Source of the DNA: Paenirhodobacter populi
GTDB lineage: Bacteria > Pseudomonadota > Alphaproteobacteria > Rhodobacterales > Rhodobacteraceae
Length of the DNA stretch: 64,000 bases
Reading direction: 5' to 3'
Assembly (NCBI RefSeq): GCF_004022215.1
Contig: NZ_SAUZ01000004.1
Location: 62,001 to 126,000, forward strand
A program made the position numbers and the translations under genes. Positions 54,810-64,000 of this stretch are shown piece after piece (position 1 is the stretch's first letter; each line of letters starts with the position of its first letter). The notes below the pieces were generated by a model. It had not been told where the DNA came from and made no database searches. It saw only the letters and a list, made by a program, of their open reading frames with translations.

Positions 54810-57191
54810 TTGTTTCGGATCACCGCGCGAACCGTCCTTGAGCTTGGATCGGAGCTGATAAGCTCTGACATTATCGCGTTTTACGAGTTGATCAAGAATG
54901 GCTTCGATGCCGGAACAAAGAACGGCGTGGAAGTCCGGTTCGACATCATTTTGACCAAAGCAATAGGTCAACGGCTGGCGAGAGAAGCCGGGAAAATCGA
55001 CCAGGCGGCGGAGAACTCCGCGCAGCTATTGAAAGAACTGAAGGCCATAGTCGATGGCGAGATACTGGAAAGCGCGTCGAAAGAAGCACTCACAAGTTTC
55101 CGCGCACTGATCGACGCGGCAGCCACGCCGGCTGCACTGGTTGACGCGCTCACCGACGGGATGAGGCAATTCAATACTATCACGATCAAGGACACCGGCT
55201 CGGGTATGTCGGCTCTGGACCTAGAAGACAACTTCCTAGTCATCGGTACTGGGTCACGAAAAAAGGCAATCGACGCAGCTCTCGCATCGGGCACCGACAA
55301 GGCACCCTACCTGGGAGAGAAAGGCATCGGTCGCTTATCCGCCATGCGACTAGGAGAACAACTCCACGTCGAGACCGCAAAGATCTCGGACACGCATTTC
55401 AATCTTCTCGAAATCGACTGGAGAATATTCAACACGGTCGACGCCATGCTGGACGAGATAGATGTGAAGCCATCCCTCGGCGAACTCAAACCATTCCCAG
55501 ATTGGTCTGGTACGACCATAGTCATAAGTGACCTTACTGAGAACTGGTTTAAGGATCGTGTTTTCGAAATGGGAGATCGCGAATTCTCCCGGCTCACGGA
55601 CCCATTCGAGGACCCTGGTGTCAGACCGAGGATTGCCGTGTTCTGGAATGGTGATCGCGTCCCAGTTGCCAGCATGTCCAGAAGCTTGCTAGAGGCTGCG
55701 CACGCTCACGTGAGTGGAAAGTACTCGATCAATGAGGGTGAGCCCTCACTGAAGATTACAACCGACATCGCTGACCTCGGCTTTCCACATCCGAGAGAAG
55801 TTCGAACGATAGTTCTGGACCGCGCCGACCTTGAAGGCGCAATCATTGGCAAAGATGATCACATCGACGATCGAGCACTCATCGACGTAGGTCCGTTTGA
55901 GTTCGAAGCTCATTGGTTCAACCGCCGCCGGCTGCCCCTTAAGGATGCTGTCGGAGAGAAACTTGCTATACGAGACGAGCAGGAAAAGTGGTCTGGCAAC
56001 CTCCTATTCCGCGATCTCTTCCGCGTGTTTCCCTACGGTGAGGAAGAGGATGACTGGCTCGAGCTTGATCGCCGAGCTCTTCGTCGATCTGGTTACCTTT
56101 TGAACCGCACCCAGTTCGTGGGTCGAACTCAGATCTCACGGATTACAAACCCGGCACTTTTAGATCAGACCAACAGAGAGGGGCTCAGGGTTACGCCAGA
56201 ACAACGTGTTTTGCTGCTGATCATGCGGTTTGCCGTCCAGGATCAGCTCGGACAAGCCATTGGCGAAGTTGAGAAGCAGTATAAAGCCCAAAAGATAGAC
56301 TTGGGGGATGCCCAAAAACAGGTCACACGAATGGAGGATCGAGCTAAGACAGCCCTCACACGCATTCGACGATTCAGCCCGCCCGATGCAGAGGAGGCGA
56401 TTGCTGACATCCAGCAAACGTTGGCCGAATTTTCCCAATTCGCAGCGCAGGCCCGAGAGCGGATAGCCCAAGTCGAACAGGAAGGGCGGCAGATGGTGGA
56501 AATGGCTGGGATCGGGTTGATGGTCGAGGTAGTTGCCCACGAACTTGCACGCTCGACAGAGAGTGCCCTGCGCGCTCTAGAAAAATTGAAAGACGCGGAT
56601 GTGCCAGATCGACTCAGGGGACAGATAGCAACCCTTCGCGCCGAGATGAAGAGCATCAACAAGCGAGTCCGCGTGCTTGATCCAATGAGTGTTTCCGGCC
56701 GTCAGAGAACGGAGTTGTTTAGTCTCAACCAGCTAGTCAACGATACAATCGCCGCCCATGCTTCTCAGTTCGAGCGGCATAGGATTACACCGATCATTCA
56801 TCTCCCCGAGAAGACGGTCCGCATACGGGCAGTGAAGGGAATGATCGTTCAAATCCTTGAGAACCTGATCTCCAATTCAGTTTATTGGCTGGACATTCGC
56901 GGGAAGCGTGAAAATTTTAAGCCGGAGATACGGATCAGCGTTGGAAGTAGCCCACCGACATTGGTCTTCGAAGACAACGGTCGTGGTGTGGCAGTCGAAA
57001 ACCAAGAAGCGGTCTTCAAGATGTTCTTTTCGTTGCGTGACTCCAAACGACGGCGAGGTCTCGGACTTTTCATCGCCCGAGATGCCGCAGAGCATCACGG
57101 AGGCACTCTCAACCTCGATGACTATCGCGACCCGCAGACGGGTCGACTGCACCGTTTCACTCTGGAACTTCCTGAAGGGCTCCAACAATGA
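54810..57191 (+). CDS. Large ATP-binding protein with two GHKL domains (Hsp90-like plus histidine-kinase-like)
   Basis: 793 residues. An in-frame TAA at 54795-54797 forces the start to TTG 54810, the first possible codon, 9 nt after AAGGA. N-terminal GHKL module: AFYELIKNGFDAG (residues 23-35), DTGSGM (128-133) and GEKGIGRLSAMRLG (from 169), the Hsp90/MORC/HATPase_c_3 style. The C-terminal kinase-type module: HEL at 577-579 in VVAHELARS (possible phospho-histidine), N-box ILENLISNS (682-690), DNGRGV (722-727) and GLGL (750-753). Between them lies a mostly helical linker with a coiled coil near 495-560. No membrane helix, so the protein is cytoplasmic. It overlaps the receiver-like gene by 4 nt, and the pair presumably acts as a sensor module. 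Confidence 0.88.
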   Translation: MFRITARTVLELGSELISSDIIAFYELIKNGFDAGTKNGVEVRFDIILTKAIGQRLAREAGKIDQAAENSAQLLKELKAIVDGEILESASKEALTSFRALIDAAATPAALVDALTDGMRQFNTITIKDTGSGMSALDLEDNFLVIGTGSRKKAIDAALASGTDKAPYLGEKGIGRLSAMRLGEQLHVETAKISDTHFNLLEIDWRIFNTVDAMLDEIDVKPSLGELKPFPDWSGTTIVISDLTENWFKDRVFEMGDREFSRLTDPFEDPGVRPRIAVFWNGDRVPVASMSRSLLEAAHAHVSGKYSINEGEPSLKITTDIADLGFPHPREVRTIVLDRADLEGAIIGKDDHIDDRALIDVGPFEFEAHWFNRRRLPLKDAVGEKLAIRDEQEKWSGNLLFRDLFRVFPYGEEEDDWLELDRRALRRSGYLLNRTQFVGRTQISRITNPALLDQTNREGLRVTPEQRVLLLIMRFAVQDQLGQAIGEVEKQYKAQKIDLGDAQKQVTRMEDRAKTALTRIRRFSPPDAEEAIADIQQTLAEFSQFAAQARERIAQVEQEGRQMVEMAGIGLMVEVVAHELARSTESALRALEKLKDADVPDRLRGQIATLRAEMKSINKRVRVLDPMSVSGRQRTELFSLNQLVNDTIAAHASQFERHRITPIIHLPEKTVRIRAVKGMIVQILENLISNSVYWLDIRGKRENFKPEIRISVGSSPPTLVFEDNGRGVAVENQEAVFKMFFSLRDSKRRRGLGLFIARDAAEHHGGTLNLDDYRDPQTGRLHRFTLELPEGLQQ

Positions 57192-59161
57192 GCCTTAGGA
57201 CGCTGCTTGAGCAACGAAATCTCCGGCGCGTACTGATCGTCGATGATGCATGCGATCCGACGCCGACTGCTAGTGATATCGGCGTCGGCAATGAGCAATG
57301 GGCAATTTTTGGCGATGACTGGGCACCTCATCGCGAGGCGATTGAGGCCGCCTATGGCAGCTCCTTGGAAGGCAGACGTCTAGATGAGCTGAAAGAACAG
57401 GACGCTTTCGTCGATGCCTTGTGGTCTCTCCGGCGCGAATTGCGGGATCTGCTTGATCCCCTCTTTACAGCCTATCGGACGACCCAGCAGGCCGACATCC
57501 ACTACGTGGAACTAGCCAAGGCTGAGTTAGAGGCCTTGGGGCTTGAGGTCATCCTAGCGGGGCGCAACTTCGCCGAAGCTTTTCGCAATGCCGACATCGT
57601 CTTGATCGATCTGTTTTTGGGTACGGCTCAGGACGCAAGCGCCGTTGCGACGTCAAAGAAAGGGCTACGCGATGCATTGGAGCAGCGTGGCATGCCTCAT
57701 CCACTCGTTATCTTGATGTCGCGAAGTATTGAGCTGACTGACCGACGCGACGAGTTCCGCGACGAAGTTGGTCTCCTGGAGAGCGGGTTCCGCATTCTGA
57801 GAAAGGAAGAGCTGGAGACTGCTGGACGGCTCGAAATCCAGCTTCAGCGGATTGCGACCCATGTCGAAGATACGCATAGACTCGGCGCATTCATCGACGC
57901 GCTAGAGACCGGTCTCGCGCAAGCCGCCAAACGCACACTTGGTCAGTTCCGTCGCCTAAAGCTTTCAGACATCGGCCAGATCCAGCAACTGCTCCTCGAA
58001 TTCGAAGGCGAACCCACAGGCAGCTACCTTGTCGACGTTTTCGATCGCGTACTAGCTCACGAGATTGAGAGCGAGACAGGCATCATCGATACTGCAACGA
58101 CCTTGAATGCCTTCAAGGTTAATGATTATCCCGCGCCATTTGTCGCTGGTTCGGTTGAACTTCAGGACATGGTCTGTAAGACGTTGACCCAGAGTGCCGA
58201 ACGGCTGCGGCTACCGGCCTCCGAAGGGCGGGTATCATTTGGAGATATCCTGCGACTGCAACCTCCAGTCGATGCTGCGACAGCTAGGCAGGAGCTTCTC
58301 GTCGATTTGGATGAGACCAAGGTGCTCGTCGTACTGACCCCAGCTTGTGATCTGGTTCGTAGCGGAGCGCCTCGCGTTCTGCTGCTTGTCGGTGAGCTTT
58401 GTGAATTCAGTATTGGGGACTGGAGCTACAAGAGCGATCTCCGGACATCTGCAATTGAAATTGACGGCCAACGACGTTGGATCCGCTGGGATGAAAAACA
58501 CGTAGAAACTGTATCCTGGGCTCAACTTGACAGAGCTTTCGATAACGACACTCTAACGACAGTCGCGCGTCTTAGAGAAGCACATGCCCTCGAAATCCAG
58601 CAGAAAGTTTTGGCTGGCCTTGGGCGAGTGGGGATGGTCGCACGATTGCCGGCGACGTTCGAAGTCACCATTGTGGCCTACTATATCGACCTCGAAGGGC
58701 GCCCCGTGGAACTTCAAGTTGATGGCTTCACTGACGGCGCTGTCTGTTGGGTCGGACGTGATGGCCCGGGCAACCAAGCGCTGAGGCTTGCGCTCACGGA
58801 ACGGGCCGTTGATGATCTGCAGGCGGCTCTTAGGAGCGTCGGGGACGAAAACGTCATGGAAGGTGCTCGTGGCGTCTATCGATTAGCAGCTAAGTCCGCT
58901 GAGTTTGCGGATCTCCTAATGAAAGGCATCCCGCTTAAAACCGCCGATCCAAATTGGAAACCCATACGCATTCGCGATGGTGACACCGTGAAGGATTTTG
59001 GAGTTATTGCGTGGAACAATGCAGATCCTAACCAAATATGGGATCGTAAGAAAATGCCAATTGGTCAGGCGGGTGTTCTCCTTCATCTAATGGACCGGGA
59101 AGATACTCAGGGGCTTCAAGAGGCTGTCTCGCACGGCCTTGTTGAGCCAGCTTCTAAATGA
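57188..59161 (+). CDS. Receiver-like protein with split response-regulator domain and unknown C-terminal part
   Basis: 657 residues, starting in the ATGA overlap with the GHKL protein. Receiver features, in order: acidic pair D19-D20 in RRVLIVDDA, phosphoacceptor candidate D141 in ADIVLIDLFLG, S178 in PLVILMSRS and K206 in FRILRKEEL. Between the first and second sites lies about 100 residues instead of the usual 35, an insertion (23-115) with WSLRRELRDLL. The rest (210-657) is unrecognised and contains LVVLTPACDLVRSG, which suggests a shared sensory or effector fold. Reading past the TGA stop in the same frame gives 42 more sensible codons to 59290, so this copy may be cut short. Confidence 0.8.
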   Translation: MSLRTLLEQRNLRRVLIVDDACDPTPTASDIGVGNEQWAIFGDDWAPHREAIEAAYGSSLEGRRLDELKEQDAFVDALWSLRRELRDLLDPLFTAYRTTQQADIHYVELAKAELEALGLEVILAGRNFAEAFRNADIVLIDLFLGTAQDASAVATSKKGLRDALEQRGMPHPLVILMSRSIELTDRRDEFRDEVGLLESGFRILRKEELETAGRLEIQLQRIATHVEDTHRLGAFIDALETGLAQAAKRTLGQFRRLKLSDIGQIQQLLLEFEGEPTGSYLVDVFDRVLAHEIESETGIIDTATTLNAFKVNDYPAPFVAGSVELQDMVCKTLTQSAERLRLPASEGRVSFGDILRLQPPVDAATARQELLVDLDETKVLVVLTPACDLVRSGAPRVLLLVGELCEFSIGDWSYKSDLRTSAIEIDGQRRWIRWDEKHVETVSWAQLDRAFDNDTLTTVARLREAHALEIQQKVLAGLGRVGMVARLPATFEVTIVAYYIDLEGRPVELQVDGFTDGAVCWVGRDGPGNQALRLALTERAVDDLQAALRSVGDENVMEGARGVYRLAAKSAEFADLLMKGIPLKTADPNWKPIRIRDGDTVKDFGVIAWNNADPNQIWDRKKMPIGQAGVLLHLMDREDTQGLQEAVSHGLVEPASK

Positions 59162-59367
59162 GGTGTAGCCGAAAAATATGGGATTTATCTCTCGAACGAG
59201 ACGGCATCTCTTGCAGCAAAGTTGGGCTATTTGAGACAGGAGGCACAGCTTGCGAAGGCCTCTGGAATCAGATTAGCCGCAATCCGATGATGGAAGCTTC
59301 TGCAACTCGAAAGTGCTTAGATATAAGAAACTCAAGCCATGAAATCCTGCCGAGACGAGTTGATGAA

Positions 59368-60552
59368 ATGAGCGAACAACAGGGCGAGAAACCTGTCTAT
59401 CTTGATGGATTTGCCACACTTCCGCTCGCACCAGCGGCGCGAACGGCAATGCTCGCTGTATGGGATCAGCCTGGGAATGCTGGATCTCCCAATGGATCGG
59501 GTGAGCGAGCGGCGCAGATCGTCGCGGCTGGCCGCGCGGCAGTTGCCGACCTGATCGGCGCCACACCCGGCGAAATCACCTTCACGTCGGGCGCGACCGA
59601 GGCCAACAACCTTGCAATGATGGGCGTGGCCCGCGCAATCCGCCAAATCGAACCAAATAGACGCAAGATCTTGATCTCTGCAATTGAGCATAAGGCCGTG
59701 ATTGAGCCAGCTCGCGAGCTTGAACGCGAGGGCTTCATCGTCGAAACTATTCCGGTCACATCGTCTGGTGTGATTGATCTTGATGCGCTGAAACGTATGT
59801 CAAAAGACGACTTGGCGCTTGCCTCTGCCATGCTAATTAACAATGAGCTAGGCACGATTCAGCCCATCGGCGAAGCATGCGAAATCGTCCATGCGGTCGG
59901 CGGACGTATGCATACTGATGCAGCTCAGGCCGTTGGTAAGGTGCACCTAGACGTTGCCGATCTTGATATCGATTACCTGAGTCTGTCTGGCCATAAGGCC
60001 TACGGACCAATGGGGATAGGTGCGCTCTATGTGGCTGCGGGCGCCCTAAAACCAAACGCCCAACTGTTTGGGGGCGGTCAGCAAAGCGGGTTGCGCCCCG
60101 GAACAGAGCCGGTCGCGCTGATTGCGGGCTTTGGTGCTGCGGCCTTGGTCGCGAAGAGCGCCTTGGCAGATGGATCTGCGCATGGCGCAGAGCTACTAAC
60201 CGTCCTTCTCGACGAACTCCGCAAGAACCAAGTCAGGTTCCTGATCCCCAGCAGCCACGCTCCGCGAGTGCCCGGCGGGATCGCCCTGTTGCTCCCTGGC
60301 ACTGACGGCGATGCTCTCTGCGCTCGCCTTGCGTCGAAGGTTTCGATTTCTACCGGGTCGGCTTGCACATCCGGCCAGATCAGAACTTCTCATGTTCTTG
60401 AATCTATTGGACTTTCAGAGCATGATGCACGTTCGGTCGTTCGAATTTTCTGCAACCGCTACAACACTGTTGATGAGGTTCGATTGGCTGCGCGCCTGAT
60501 AGCAGATGCGGTTCGGAGAAGTTCCCTTGCTACTGGAGGACGTCACCAGTAG
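59368..60552 (+). CDS. Cysteine desulfurase (class V aminotransferase, IscS/NifS/DndA-like)
   Basis: 394 residues from ATG 59368, close to family length. PLP motifs: AIEHKAV (substrate histidine), HTDAAQAVGK (ring aspartate), SLSGHKAYGP (Schiff-base lysine), and the catalytic cysteine loop STGSACTSGQIRTSH near the C-terminus. It moves sulfur from cysteine onto its own cysteine for transfer to a partner. An in-frame ATG at 59158 overlaps the previous stop and would add 70 residues unlike any desulfurase, so I reject it, though coupling cannot be excluded. In the company of a DUF4007-like protein and an ATPase, a role in DNA or tRNA thiolation is proposed. Confidence 0.9.
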   Translation: MSEQQGEKPVYLDGFATLPLAPAARTAMLAVWDQPGNAGSPNGSGERAAQIVAAGRAAVADLIGATPGEITFTSGATEANNLAMMGVARAIRQIEPNRRKILISAIEHKAVIEPARELEREGFIVETIPVTSSGVIDLDALKRMSKDDLALASAMLINNELGTIQPIGEACEIVHAVGGRMHTDAAQAVGKVHLDVADLDIDYLSLSGHKAYGPMGIGALYVAAGALKPNAQLFGGGQQSGLRPGTEPVALIAGFGAAALVAKSALADGSAHGAELLTVLLDELRKNQVRFLIPSSHAPRVPGGIALLLPGTDGDALCARLASKVSISTGSACTSGQIRTSHVLESIGLSEHDARSVVRIFCNRYNTVDEVRLAARLIADAVRRSSLATGGRHQ

Positions 60553-60561
60553 ACTTGCGGC

Positions 60562-61485
60562 ATGACGCAAGGTGGACTGAAATTTGATTCCAAGGTGCAG
60601 TTTGCAGGGCACGAAACGTTCCCTCTTCGGCTGCTATGGCTTAAGAAAGCCTACGATGCGATCGGCGACGAGGCGCACATAGGGGTATTCCAAGAGCAGG
60701 AAGCTATTACACGCTTCGGTGTTGGTCGCAATATGGCCGCCTCAATGCGGTATTGGGCGAATACATCTGGTTTTTTTGAAGAGGCTGAGCGGATAATTCG
60801 CCCGACACCAATCGGCCGCGCGATTTTGCGAGATGGGGGGCTCGATCCTTTTTTGGAGCAGATGTCGACTATCTGGCTGGTTCATTGGCACATTGCAAGT
60901 CTGCAAACGAGAGCCACAACGACCTTCTATGCCTTTAACGTCCTGAATGCGATCGATTTTGAACCCGCGACGTTACTCGATGAAATCTTCGGATTGGCTA
61001 AGGCACAAGGCTGGCGCGCGACCCGTGGGACACTGAAGCGCGATATCGAAGTGTTCCTGAGGAGCTATGTCCGCAAGGGTGCTATAGTGAGTGAAGATGC
61101 CGCAGAGCCGTTACTTGCTGAGCTCTCTATCATCCGCGAGGCCCGTTTGGGTGGATGGTACGAGTTTGTTCGCGGCCCAAAGCCAACACTTCACGATGCG
61201 ATCTTTACATATGCCCTAGGCAGCTTCTGGGAACGTAGCGGGGGATCGACCACACTTACCGCCGAGCAGATCTGCTATGCCCCCGGTTCACCGGGTCGCG
61301 TCTTCAAGCTCGACGAAGACAGCGTTGTCACTCGTTTGATGAGGCTTGACGATGTGACAAATGGCGCCTGGCAGTGGGTTGATACTGCAGGCCTTCGGCA
61401 GATTCAGCGAACTGCAGATATAGACACAGCAAAGTTGATCCGCACGGCGTATCGGGTTACTCCCTCGAGGAGAGCTGCTCCATGA
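60562..61485 (+). CDS. DUF4007-like protein
   Basis: 307 residues. The opening FAGHETFPLRLLWLKKAYDA is, from memory, the signature of the DUF4007 family. It is followed by FGVGRNMAASMRYWANTSGF, a winged-helix-like stretch, and a C-terminal region with LTAEQICYAPGSPGRVFKLD. DUF4007 proteins are often found beside PAPS-reductase-like proteins and large ATPases in suspected defence or DNA-sulfur-modification loci. The gene begins 9 nt after the desulfurase stop and overlaps the next start by 4 nt. No catalytic residues can be named. Confidence 0.8.
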   Translation: MTQGGLKFDSKVQFAGHETFPLRLLWLKKAYDAIGDEAHIGVFQEQEAITRFGVGRNMAASMRYWANTSGFFEEAERIIRPTPIGRAILRDGGLDPFLEQMSTIWLVHWHIASLQTRATTTFYAFNVLNAIDFEPATLLDEIFGLAKAQGWRATRGTLKRDIEVFLRSYVRKGAIVSEDAAEPLLAELSIIREARLGGWYEFVRGPKPTLHDAIFTYALGSFWERSGGSTTLTAEQICYAPGSPGRVFKLDEDSVVTRLMRLDDVTNGAWQWVDTAGLRQIQRTADIDTAKLIRTAYRVTPSRRAAP

Positions 61486-64000
61486 CTATGCTCTCAATGA
61501 AAGTGGCGATAGACAGGCGTTTTGCACGCTCAGCACGCTTGGATGCCGACCTTAATGGAACACCGCCCCTCGTTGGCTATGTGCTGCAAGGAACAGCCGC
61601 AAAGGCACTAACCGTCCTTGCGGAGAGCCAGATTGAGAGCCAGCAGGGGGCGTTTACTTGGACCGGCCCCTATGGCGGGGGCAAATCCAGCGCTGCACTG
61701 CTGCTCGCAAATCTTGTTGCCGGGCATCGACAGAATATGAAAGTCGCCAAGCAGATCGCAGGCTCCGCGCTGAGCGATCTGTACGCGAAGGCGTTTCCGA
61801 AGCGTGGAGGTGAATGGCGAGTCGTCGCTGTGACCGGCGGCAGGGTCCGATTGCGCGATGCTATCGCCGATGCCAGTGCAAGAACCTTCGATTGGGATGC
61901 AGAGCAGCTAGCAAATGCAAGGACAACGGACAGCGCATTGATAGATGCACTGCTACCAAATGAGCCGCAACAGGTGAGCGGAACCCTAGTCATCCTGGAT
62001 GAGCTCGGGAAGATGCTGGAACACGAGGCGCTAGAAGGTGGTGATGTCCAACTGCTCCAAGATCTGGCCGAACGGGCGTCCCGTAGTAACGGGCGCTTGG
62101 TTGTTATCGGCATCCTTCATCAATCCTTCGAGCAATATGCAGCCCGTGCTGCTCGTGACGCTCGACAAGAGTGGGCCAAGGTCCAAGGACGATATCAGGA
62201 TATTGCATTCCTAAGTGGCGCCGATGAGACGGTTGCGCTTCTTGGGCGCGCAATCGCAAGTGATCCACCGCCATCCGCCTTAGAGCGGGCCCGGATCGTT
62301 GCGGAAGCCGTATCGAAACGGCGCCCCACCGAAGCAGGTATTCTGGCCGCTGCCTTGGCCGATACATGGCCCCTAAACCCTGTGACCGCTCTGCTCCTCG
62401 GTCCAGTGTCACGTGCGCGCTTCGCACAAAACGAGCGAAGCGTTTTTGGATTCCTGAGTTCAGCTGAACCCTCGGGCTTCCAACAGTTTCTTGCCGAAAC
62501 CAAAGTGGGTAAGGGAACATACGATCCCTCAGTTCTTTGGGATTACCTAGCGTCCAATTTCGGGATGACATTGGCCAGTGGCCCCGATGGCAGTCGCTTC
62601 AGTCTCGCTTTCGAGGCGATCGAACGCGCAGGCGCTAAAGGCGGAGGCCTTCATGTCGCCCTCACCAAGTCGGCAGCGGTTATTGAGTTCTTCCGCAACG
62701 GATCTGGCGTTGCATTGGCTGATGACTTTATCGCTGCAGCACTTCCAACGGCGGGCAACCTCGAGCTAGCCGCCGCCATCAAGGACTTGCTGGACTGGGC
62801 TATCCTCATCCGTCAACCTCGTTTGGGTGGCTACGCTCTTTTCGCCGGAAGTGACTTTGATCTGGACGACGCCGTTGGGCGTGCAATTACCCCAATCGAC
62901 AATCGACAGCTTGAAAGTATCCCTCACCGAGCAGGCTTCGGCTTTGCGACAGCCAAGCGCCACTACTTCGTAACTGGAACGCTACGCAACTTCGAAATTG
63001 TCCTTCAGGTTGCAGGCACGGGCGATACGGCCAAAGTGCTGTCTGAAACCCTGCTCTCCCGCAAGGAACACGGCAGCGGCGTTCTTGCACTCATGCTGGG
63101 TGATGGCACTCTAACATCCCACGAACTGGATGACTTGGCTAAAAGCACGGCCAAACTGCTCAACGGCAAGAATCGCGCCGTAGCCATTGGAGCCGCTGCC
63201 GACAGCCTTGCCTTGCGCACGATCGCGTCGGAGTTACTGGCTGTGGAGCGCGTGATCCGCGATCATCCACAGCTAGAGGGAGATCGTATTGCACGTCGTG
63301 AAGTTGCGGCGCGCCACTCTCTTTGTGTTGACGAATTACATCGCAGTCTCGAAGCAGCACTCGAGACTGCGCGCTGGATTCTGGCGCCCGCACCTGAGAA
63401 ATCCTGGCAAGAACCTCTTGCAGTAGTTGCAAGTGCATTGGCTGATGCAGCATACCCGTCAGCTCCGATCCTCAAGAGCGAACTCCTCCAGCGGGACAAG
63501 CCGTCATCGAATGCCAACGCCGCATTGCGCGATCTCGCGTATGCGATGGTTAACCGACCCGCAGAGGAAAACCTCGGCATAACAGGATATCCTGCCGAGC
63601 TCGGCTTGTACCTCACAGTCCTAAAACCATTCGGTCTTCACCGTGTGAGAGCAGGTGGAGAATTCACTTTTGGTGACCCGGATCTAAGCGAAGCAGGGCA
63701 ATCATTACAGGCTGCCTGGAGCCTTCTCGATGATGTTGGAGCAAATGGCTTAGACGCCGTTTTTAGCCAGTGGTCCCTACCACCCTTTGGAATCAAAGCC
63801 GGCGTAATGCCGCTTCTTGCCCTTGCTTATATGATGTCCAGACGCGAAAGCGTCGCGGTCTACATCGATGGTGTATATCAAACTGCGATCAATGAGGTGG
63901 TCGTAGATAAGCTGCTTCAGAGACCCTCTGAGTTCCGTTTGCGGCGCGTGGACAGGTCCGTTCGCGAAACCGCGTTTCTCAGCGGCTTGGGTGAGCGCCT
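61482..64000 (+). CDS. Large P-loop ATPase (3' end outside window)
   Basis: The ATG at 61482 overlaps the DUF4007 stop; 839 codons are in the window without a stop and the gene runs off the end. Walker A GPYGGGKSS at residues 62-70 and a Walker B-like VILDELGKML at 170-179 identify the ATPase; the rest is helical with no further domain I recognise. The size (over 840 residues) fits the defence-type ATPases that accompany DUF4007 and sulfur-modification proteins, or a BrxC-like protein. Neighbours after 64000 would decide its system. Confidence 0.85.
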   Translation, partial: MTMLSMKVAIDRRFARSARLDADLNGTPPLVGYVLQGTAAKALTVLAESQIESQQGAFTWTGPYGGGKSSAALLLANLVAGHRQNMKVAKQIAGSALSDLYAKAFPKRGGEWRVVAVTGGRVRLRDAIADASARTFDWDAEQLANARTTDSALIDALLPNEPQQVSGTLVILDELGKMLEHEALEGGDVQLLQDLAERASRSNGRLVVIGILHQSFEQYAARAARDARQEWAKVQGRYQDIAFLSGADETVALLGRAIASDPPPSALERARIVAEAVSKRRPTEAGILAAALADTWPLNPVTALLLGPVSRARFAQNERSVFGFLSSAEPSGFQQFLAETKVGKGTYDPSVLWDYLASNFGMTLASGPDGSRFSLAFEAIERAGAKGGGLHVALTKSAAVIEFFRNGSGVALADDFIAAALPTAGNLELAAAIKDLLDWAILIRQPRLGGYALFAGSDFDLDDAVGRAITPIDNRQLESIPHRAGFGFATAKRHYFVTGTLRNFEIVLQVAGTGDTAKVLSETLLSRKEHGSGVLALMLGDGTLTSHELDDLAKSTAKLLNGKNRAVAIGAAADSLALRTIASELLAVERVIRDHPQLEGDRIARREVAARHSLCVDELHRSLEAALETARWILAPAPEKSWQEPLAVVASALADAAYPSAPILKSELLQRDKPSSNANAALRDLAYAMVNRPAEENLGITGYPAELGLYLTVLKPFGLHRVRAGGEFTFGDPDLSEAGQSLQAAWSLLDDVGANGLDAVFSQWSLPPFGIKAGVMPLLALAYMMSRRESVAVYIDGVYQTAINEVVVDKLLQRPSEFRLRRVDRSVRETAFLSGLGER

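Follow-up and report, generated by a model that had tools for sequence, protein, structure and literature searches.

An SspABCD phosphorothioate locus of Paenirhodobacter populi with a predicted kinase-receiver pair of its own

Introduction

SspABCD is a known phosphorothioate (PT) defence module, described with SspE and SspFGH. In the excerpts of one survey, 2,211 of the 2,678 sspBCD modules had neither SspE nor SspFGH, and most were without a known restriction partner (PMC8092258). Pairs of HEF_HK and Response_reg_2 proteins have been reported beside restriction-modification (R-M) systems, and the accessible sections of that report state that proteins of this family are cytoplasmic (PMC8011034). 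Here we analyse 64,000 nucleotides of DNA from Paenirhodobacter populi (GCF_004022215.1, contig NZ_SAUZ01000004.1, positions 62,001-126,000), referred to as the window. Its last part, from position 54810 to the window end at 64000, encodes a histidine kinase with two GHKL ATPase domains (HK), a split-receiver protein (RR) and the first genes of an ssp cluster.

Our analysis points to a kinase-receiver pair coupled to PT defence that is real, conserved and largely unreported; SspABCD itself and HEF_HK/Response_reg_2 pairs near R-M systems were known. We propose that the locus is a complete SspABCD PT system with a dedicated two-component-like pair, which would sense the mark on DNA or the state of infection and license restriction. 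Judged from sequence, this proposal has in our view an even chance of being right.

Compared with the described SspABCD systems, the sspABCD genes are shared, and their profile matches span nearly the whole of each protein. The window locus adds HK and RR, and a trio of genes for a PLD nuclease, a GHKL ATPase and an SF2 helicase adjoins sspD in place of SspE or SspFGH. Compared with the pairs of R-M systems, the HATPase_c_3, HEF_HK and HATPase_c domains, the adjacent split receiver and the key residues are the same, and both proteins are homologous; we take the location of our pair from that related family. The window type differs in forming a separate clade (support 100), in an RR that PF19192 does not recognise and in its partner, which is PT and not a C5 methylase. 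The terms ‘phosphorothio’, ‘DUF4007’ and ‘desulfurase’ are absent from the main text of PMC8011034. A short speculative remark concerns a histidine-kinase two-component system of A. baumannii global clone 2, located near sspBCD genes that have no known nuclease; it is limited to one clone, and the passage contains no family analysis (PMC12421847). Among the matches listed from the open-licence PMC literature, which does not include subscription papers, preprints and supplements, this remark is the only link between such a pair and PT. In one of our loci, from A. baumannii (L118, CP035931), RR is matched at 4e-18 and pieces of HK lie beside sspBCD, and we infer that it is the locus meant in that passage. 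In L118 the RR match is convergent with sspBCD and HK is in three open reading frame (ORF) pieces, which may reflect gene decay or the quality of the record. An earlier note on the window had considered a signalling-like pair foreign to Dnd and Ssp systems. The pair is indeed an addition to Ssp here, but excerpts of the two reports give precedents, beside R-M systems (PMC8011034) and near sspBCD (PMC12421847).

Results and discussion

Layout of the locus

Loci read for comparison are labelled L with a number. Genes beyond the window were read on L002, where the window position is the L002 position plus 53799. The genes of the pair and of the Ssp module are as follows.

54810..57191, plus strand: HK (orf1), double-GHKL paraMORC-type histidine kinase, 793 residues, TTG start (Pfam HATPase_c_3, HEF_HK, HATPase_c)
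57188..59161, plus strand: RR (orf2), split-receiver protein, 657 residues, ATGA overlap with HK (hhalign to Response_reg_2 proteins, receiver residues)
59368..60552, plus strand: sspA, cysteine desulfurase (PADLOC SspA, 5.9e-110)
60562..61485, plus strand: sspB, DUF4007, 307 residues (PADLOC SspB, 2e-101; Pfam DUF4007, 6.7e-76)
61482..64790, plus strand, running past the window end at 64000: sspC, P-loop ATPase, 1102 residues (PADLOC SspC, 1.5e-286)
64787-65626, plus strand, beyond the window and overlapping sspC: sspD, PAPS-reductase-like (PADLOC SspD, 1.3e-131, whole-length match)

Within the window the locus consists of five plus-strand ORFs (54810-57191, 57188-59161, 59158-60552, 60562-61485 and 61482 to beyond 64000). 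ATGA overlaps join HK to RR at 57188 and sspB to sspC at 61482, and a 9-bp gap lies at 60552/60562; all ORFs and junctions described in the earlier note are in the sequence. The sspA frame is open from 59158, which would give ~70 extra residues, and its profile match begins at residue 81. The ATG at 59368 is the likelier start, leaving ~200 bp between orf2 and sspA.

The genes that the earlier note had read as a cysteine desulfurase, a DUF4007-like protein and a large P-loop ATPase proved to be sspA, sspB and sspC. Since sspD follows sspC just past the window end, the four genes together form a complete SspABCD module, predicted to carry out PT modification. The proposal of an undescribed sulfur system fell with the identification of sspD, which completes a known one, and undescribed sulfur chemistry was rejected on the same ground. 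A Dnd identity was also rejected: the SspD profile matches at 1.3e-131 and the DndC profile at 1.2e-5, and orf4 and orf5 are SspB and SspC. The match of SspD to BrxP (BREX type 4) is weak (2e-8); PglZ and BrxL were not among the 12 locus proteins scanned with PADLOC, a scan that left out the remainder of the window. Reading on past 64000 for a PAPS-reductase-like gene, a helicase or a nuclease, as the earlier note advised, yielded sspD, the SF2 helicase and the PLD nuclease.

GC content at third codon positions is 0.55-0.59 in the five genes and 0.69-0.74 in the three upstream genes measured, in agreement with the richer A/T noticed before. It is also low in sspD and the downstream trio (0.60-0.63), so the low-GC block continues beyond the window.

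The kinase and the receiver

Domains and conserved residues of the pair were located as follows.

55167..55418, plus strand: N-terminal HATPase_c_3 of HK (MORC/MutL/Hsp90-like ATPase core), residues 120-203 (Pfam, E 1.5e-12)
56511..56690, plus strand: HEF_HK (DHp-like), residues 568-627 (Pfam, 28.0 bits, cut-off 24.1)
56538-56540, plus strand: putative phospho-acceptor H577 of HK (H577-E578-L579 in 87 of 87)
56844..57176, plus strand: C-terminal HATPase_c of HK (kinase catalytic domain), residues 679-789 (Pfam, E 1.2e-15)
57242..57805, plus strand: receiver-like part of RR with DD19-20, D141, S178 and K206 (conserved in 61 aligned sequences)
57608-57610, plus strand: putative phospho-acceptor D141 of RR (invariant in 61 RRs)
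58346..58654, plus strand: conserved C-terminal RR region, C387-D388 ... R461 ... R480xG482 (conservation in the alignment)

HK was aligned across 87 loci, comprising the window, eight plasmids and 78 of the 80 genome loci introduced below; the profile set and the trees do not include L060 and L068, whose HKs are truncated. Among 25 motif positions checked, 23 are unchanged, and E15 and E573 vary only to D (3 and 4 rows). The unchanged residues include N30, D33, D128, G130, G132, G169, K171, G172 and G174 in the N-terminal ATP site, and H577-E578-L579, N685, N689, D722, G724, G726, G750 and G752 in the kinase half. By these motifs HK keeps two intact predicted ATP sites and an H-box. A search of solved structures with the HK profile matched histidine kinases and Hsp90-type ATPases. 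The double-GHKL assignment made earlier is thus upheld by the three Pfam domains.

By its conserved residues, RR holds the predicted receiver catalytic set DD, D, S/T and K. D19, D20, D141, L176, F201, K206, G352, C387, R480 and G482 are invariant in 61 sequences, and S178 is conserved in at least 90%. An hhalign comparison with eight canonical receivers collected from the loci places D141, S178 and K206 in register, at a probability of only 66%. Pfam, NCBIfam and PADLOC gave no match to the window RR at E 0.1, but it shows the receiver residues that fit the split-receiver reading of the earlier note. The hallmarks of two-component systems (H-box His, kinase ATP site, receiver DD/D/S-T/K) are present in HK and RR at the residue level.

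Linkage of the pair to SspBCD

A tblastn search with RR alone in 72,556 plasmid records gave nine matches, all of them among the 81 records that hold SspD. In the eight regions examined (NZ_CP123850.1, equal in length to NZ_CP115927.1, was left out), HK, RR and sspABCD were each present. A profile built from the window HK and eight plasmid HKs was used to scan genome contigs; it found 355 relatives, of which the closest 80 were kept. The HK relatives span 13 phyla. With Ssp and RR profiles built from genes of the window contig and the plasmids, SspB, C or D was found within the fetched stretch in 73 of the 80 HK loci and RR in 78, and SspB, C or D was on the contig of HK in 77. SspB lies outside the stretch on the same contig in L024, L030, L040 and L074, and in L039, one of the 73, it is present only as a truncated copy. 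This co-occurrence ties the pair genetically to SspBCD across 13 phyla and supports the suggestion, made from the window alone, of DNA-sulfur modification with its own signalling-like pair. Two outcomes had been named as counting against an undescribed island: a known complete system after 64000, which is what SspABCD turned out to be, and rare co-occurrence of the genes, at odds with the 73 of 80.

The order sspB-sspC-sspD-HK-RR on one strand was found in 42 of the 80 loci. In ten others the pair lies between sspC and sspD (nine, and one with RR in two pieces). This sspC-HK-RR-sspD arrangement occurs in Bacteroidota, Planctomycetota, Chloroflexota, Nitrospirota and Thermodesulfobacteriota; besides these ten loci, a plasmid of Candidatus Chlorohelix (L012) has sspA-sspB-sspC-HK-RR-sspD. 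The spacing of HK and RR has a median of -4 bp and is 20 bp or less in 58 of the 62 cases measured; between sspD and HK the median distance is 66 bp (n=45).

Distance correlations were computed without near-copies, and n differs by pair. HK and RR correlate at 0.96 (n 67). The correlations of HK with SspB, SspC and SspD are 0.58, 0.55 and 0.51 (n 61-64; none of 2000 permutations as high) and with SspA 0.49 (n 38), and those with SspF, SspG and SspH are 0.15-0.21 (n 17-19; 34 to 181 of 2000 permutations as high). These values indicate that HK and RR form a single unit, which is coupled to the marking module but exchanged between Ssp lineages.

Defence genes cluster in genomes, and an independent defence or stress pair could merely cluster with Ssp in defence islands; L079, where HK is with SspFGH and not beside SspBCD, fits such an explanation. 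We strongly disfavour it and regard it as very improbable. SspBCD lies within the stretch in 73 of the 80 HK loci, whereas only 8 of the 385 genomes searched in the class contain DUF4007 (own genome included); the pair is inserted inside the operon in five phyla; and ten control loci of the PF19192 type gave no Ssp match. The pair as a chance neighbour of Ssp was rejected on the plasmid and genome linkage counts and on the C5-methylase contrast with the sister clade described below.

In a search of 299 genomes of the phylum with RR, it was found in the own genome only. An RR-only scan of viral contigs gave no relative, and phage records gave just five partial HK matches, none reaching 80% coverage.

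Ssp loci without the pair

Strong SspD matches (E <1e-80) were found in 11 of 398 genomes of the phylum (own genome included). Weak matches occurred in 191 of the 398, and all but the 11 were dropped as other PAPS-reductase-like proteins (best dropped 2.5e-25). From these genomes and those with DUF4007 we drew the 17 Ssp loci other than the window's own, each with ~10 kb per side, or less where the contig is too short (that of L102 has 10.5 kb). Nine of them have the complete trio, three SspFGH and three a PbeC-type ORF (L103, L152 and, as a fragment at the edge of its contig, L102), and SspE is in one trio locus (L155). Weak SspH or helicase matches in L150, L102, L106 and L152 were not scored as FGH or trio.

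None of the 17 contains HK or RR, and the pair is, by this comparison, a minority add-on of Ssp. The earlier note's new regulated variant remains a fair inference for loci like the window, but it does not describe these 17. Ssp is often without the pair and the pair seldom without Ssp, an asymmetry expected if the pair needs the mark. If the pair reads the mark or depends on it, this would account for SspBCD being on the same contig in 77 of the 80 HK loci while most Ssp loci lack the pair.

The pair could also control the marking side, through SspBCD activity or ssp transcription (PT density), and not restriction. Its place is among the modification genes, in some loci directly between sspC and sspD; four kinds of effector accompany it; and HK correlates with SspB, C and D (0.51-0.58) and weakly with SspF, G and H (0.15-0.21, n 17-19). 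However, RR has no DNA-binding output domain recognisable in Pfam, and the drawn Ssp loci manage without the pair (0 of 17). We consider this explanation improbable.

A sister clade linked to C5 methylases

PF19192 (Response_reg_2) matches were found in 10 of the 398 genomes of the phylum, and the window genome is not among them. None of these ten loci has an Ssp profile match. In phmmer searches a C5-methylase-like ORF is present in all ten and in none of the 80 Ssp-type loci; Pfam DNA_methylase matches 11 proteins among 91 neighbours. In the HK tree one branch separates the ten PF19192-type from the 87 Ssp-type rows (SH-aLRT 100, by a quick method with a midpoint root). Homology between the RRs of the two clades extends over 358 columns (hhalign 98.6%, E 6.4e-16) and takes in the C-terminal region with the CD motif and the LR...RVG-like motif. 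The sister clade is tied to C5-cytosine methylases as the Ssp-type pair is to SspBCD.

These results allow a tentative generalisation, which we think rather less probable than not. Double-GHKL kinase/receiver pairs may be a portable ‘self-mark sensor’, with one clade serving PT (Ssp) and its sister 5-methylcytosine. The mark status of DNA in a MORC-like clamp would trigger the kinase half, and a phosphorelay, not direct recognition at the nuclease, would switch restriction.

Effectors and the helicase-GHKL-PLD trio

Directly behind sspD, on the minus strand (L002:11836-16215), lies the trio.

65635-66549, minus strand, beyond the window: PLD nuclease (PADLOC, closest models distant)
66549-68438, minus strand, beyond the window: GHKL ATPase (PADLOC, closest models distant)
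68362-70014, minus strand, beyond the window: SF2 helicase (PbeA, 2e-19)

None of the three proteins has a close model in PADLOC (best MzaB 5.1e-13, DrmC 7.5e-13 and PbeA 2e-19). Other effectors were sought in the window, L002 and L003. No SspF/G/H-like ORF was found there by profile, no PbeC-like ORF and no ORF matching five SspE-family ORFs at 1e-4; SspE was also absent from the 12 locus proteins scanned with PADLOC, the rest of the genome not being searched.

The trio recurs. A tblastn search with its GHKL ATPase gave 25 plasmid records, and SspD is present in each of the 12 that reach 37% identity and 81% coverage. Thirteen of the 25 cover 80% of the query, and the thirteenth (25% identity, Nocardiopsis) is not among the 60 listed of the 81 SspD records. 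In L022 the trio separates sspD from HK and shares their strand; the 25 kb of L119 examined contain the trio and sspABCD and gave no HK or RR match. Of the nine drawn loci with the trio, four have a PLD gene that is matched weakly (1e-11 to 1e-18). As a partner of Ssp the trio is recurrent (9 of 17 drawn loci) and apparently unnamed.

PbeABCD, or CxC ABC-ATPase, systems combine a PLD(HKD) nuclease and a ResIII-type SF2 helicase as PT-linked restriction and are described with Dnd in the excerpts of PMC6459918 and PMC10853773. The window helicase resembles PbeA (2e-19) and a PLD nuclease is likewise part of the set, but nuclease and helicase are separate genes, there is an extra GHKL ATPase and no PbeC-like ORF, and the system is Ssp and not Dnd. 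A GHKL ATPase, an SF2 helicase and a nuclease are also common to the MORC/paraMORC-helicase R-M operons, whose partner, in the sections of PMC2292703 available, is methylation and not PT. The trio looks like a dedicated Ssp restriction module made from the same parts as PbeA and the MORC-helicase operons.

In the 87 HK loci we found SspFGH (at least one of the three) in 31, the trio in nine, Pbe-like genes in six and SspE in four; Pbe-like stands for the PbeC family (representative 1.4e-46), and the SspE representative matches at 1.3e-278. The four rows of the window's own HK clade (100/100) differ in effector: the trio in the window, SspE in Brevundimonas and SspFGH in Acidiphilium and Phenylobacterium. 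The pair tracks the marking module more than any single nuclease; on the HK tree of the 50 loci with an effector, the effector changes 8 times, where 3 is the minimum. A PbeC-type ABC ATPase is near HK-RR in L031, L032, L033, L043, L044 and L045, and five of these six also have Ssp genes within the stretch. In R. wittichii plasmid pUPO218 an IS5-family transposase gene interrupts sspF (L005:12585-15305).

No recognised effector was found within the stretch in the remaining 37 of the 87 loci, which is also compatible with the pair itself being the restriction effector. A nuclease or toxic domain in the C-terminal part of RR would then be freed by HK at unmarked DNA, with SspABCD marking shielding the host in an R-M-like manner. 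The presence of SspBCD on the same contig in 77 of 80 HK loci while Ssp is common without the pair, the C5 methylases in 10 of 10 sister-clade loci and the conservation of the C-terminal RR region in both clades are in line with such a role. On the other hand, a known or recurrent effector is also present in 50 of the 87 loci, and no nuclease signature was found in the 61 RRs scanned (NusB and WXG100_2 have one marginal member each). On balance, we find an effector role of the pair unlikely.

Proposed mechanism

In our proposal of a sensor that licenses restriction, the N-terminal GHKL half of HK would be an ATP-driven DNA clamp of the MutL/MORC kind, which samples DNA to detect the self mark or an infection. 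The clamp idea draws on family knowledge, DNA looping having been proposed for MORCs and paraMORCs in the sections of PMC2292703 available. On unmarked or replicating foreign DNA, the kinase half of HK would move phosphate from H577 to D141 of RR. RR, via its conserved C-terminal region, would then license or silence restriction by the effector present, which here is probably the helicase-GHKL-PLD trio, perhaps through contact with the Ssp complex.

Several observations weigh against this proposal. The absence of HK and RR from all 17 drawn Ssp loci means that Ssp works without the pair, and 37 of the 87 HK loci show no recognised effector to be licensed. On the HK tree, loci with the same effector label tend to group together: for the 50 effector loci the four labels need 8 changes (minimum 3; several branches are long), compared with a mean of 17.9 in shuffles, so the pair is not wholly indifferent to the effector. 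The HK linkage counts rest on the closest 80 of the 355 relatives only; the sole SspB of the L079 assembly is on another contig than its HK-RR-SspFGH locus; and L031 and L054, both at contig ends, have no SspB in the assembly. The HK-SspBCD correlations are well under those of SspB-SspC (0.96, n 60), SspC-SspD (0.86, n 61) and SspC-SspH (0.81, n 12), and the last comparison suggests that the pair may be swapped among Ssp lineages more freely than SspFGH. For RR, the low probability of the receiver alignment is joined by Pfam searches in which none of the 61 Ssp-type RRs matches Response_reg (PF00072) or Response_reg_2 (PF19192) at E 0.01; they form a family without a Pfam label. The C-terminal region has no Pfam relative in the 61 members save two single marginal matches (NusB and WXG100_2), and the RR profile gave one chance-level match (E 0.53) among the solved structures in PDB.

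The pair and the trio bear on the many sspBCD modules without a known restriction partner, and the trio is a candidate partner for many of these ‘orphan’ modules. Our comparison suggests a built-in sensor as the switch of some defences that mark DNA with sulfur. If the mark is what the pair reads, a phosphorelay would sense the epigenetic state of DNA, which would link signalling in bacteria to the distinction of self from non-self and open the control of PT restriction to direct tests.

Neighbouring genes

Downstream of the trio, the same low-GC block contains genes for a UvrD-like helicase, an OST-HTH/LOTUS protein and an Abi-like protein (L002:16580-19276, L003:857-4120); the last matches PD-T4-5 (8.8e-18). 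ORFs that read as repABC-like are at L003:7227-10992 on the window contig, ~26 kb from HK. The cassette after them (L003:11096-16988) we take, from its proteins, to be SRAP (YedK), ImuA/ImuB and DnaE2. HK is ~6-12 kb from annotated plasmid repABC in L007, L009, L010 and L011, with integrase and toxin-antitoxin genes between. A gene for a STAND-like protein directly follows RR on the same strand in L017, L018, L019, L020, L022, L031 and L032; the protein has a median of ~980 residues, is short in L019, and in the one scanned has NB-ARC and TPR matches. An Mrr-type restriction endonuclease-like gene follows RR in L025 (14272-15762; Mrr_cat 1.9e-5) and, by clustering, in L033 (14255-15718).

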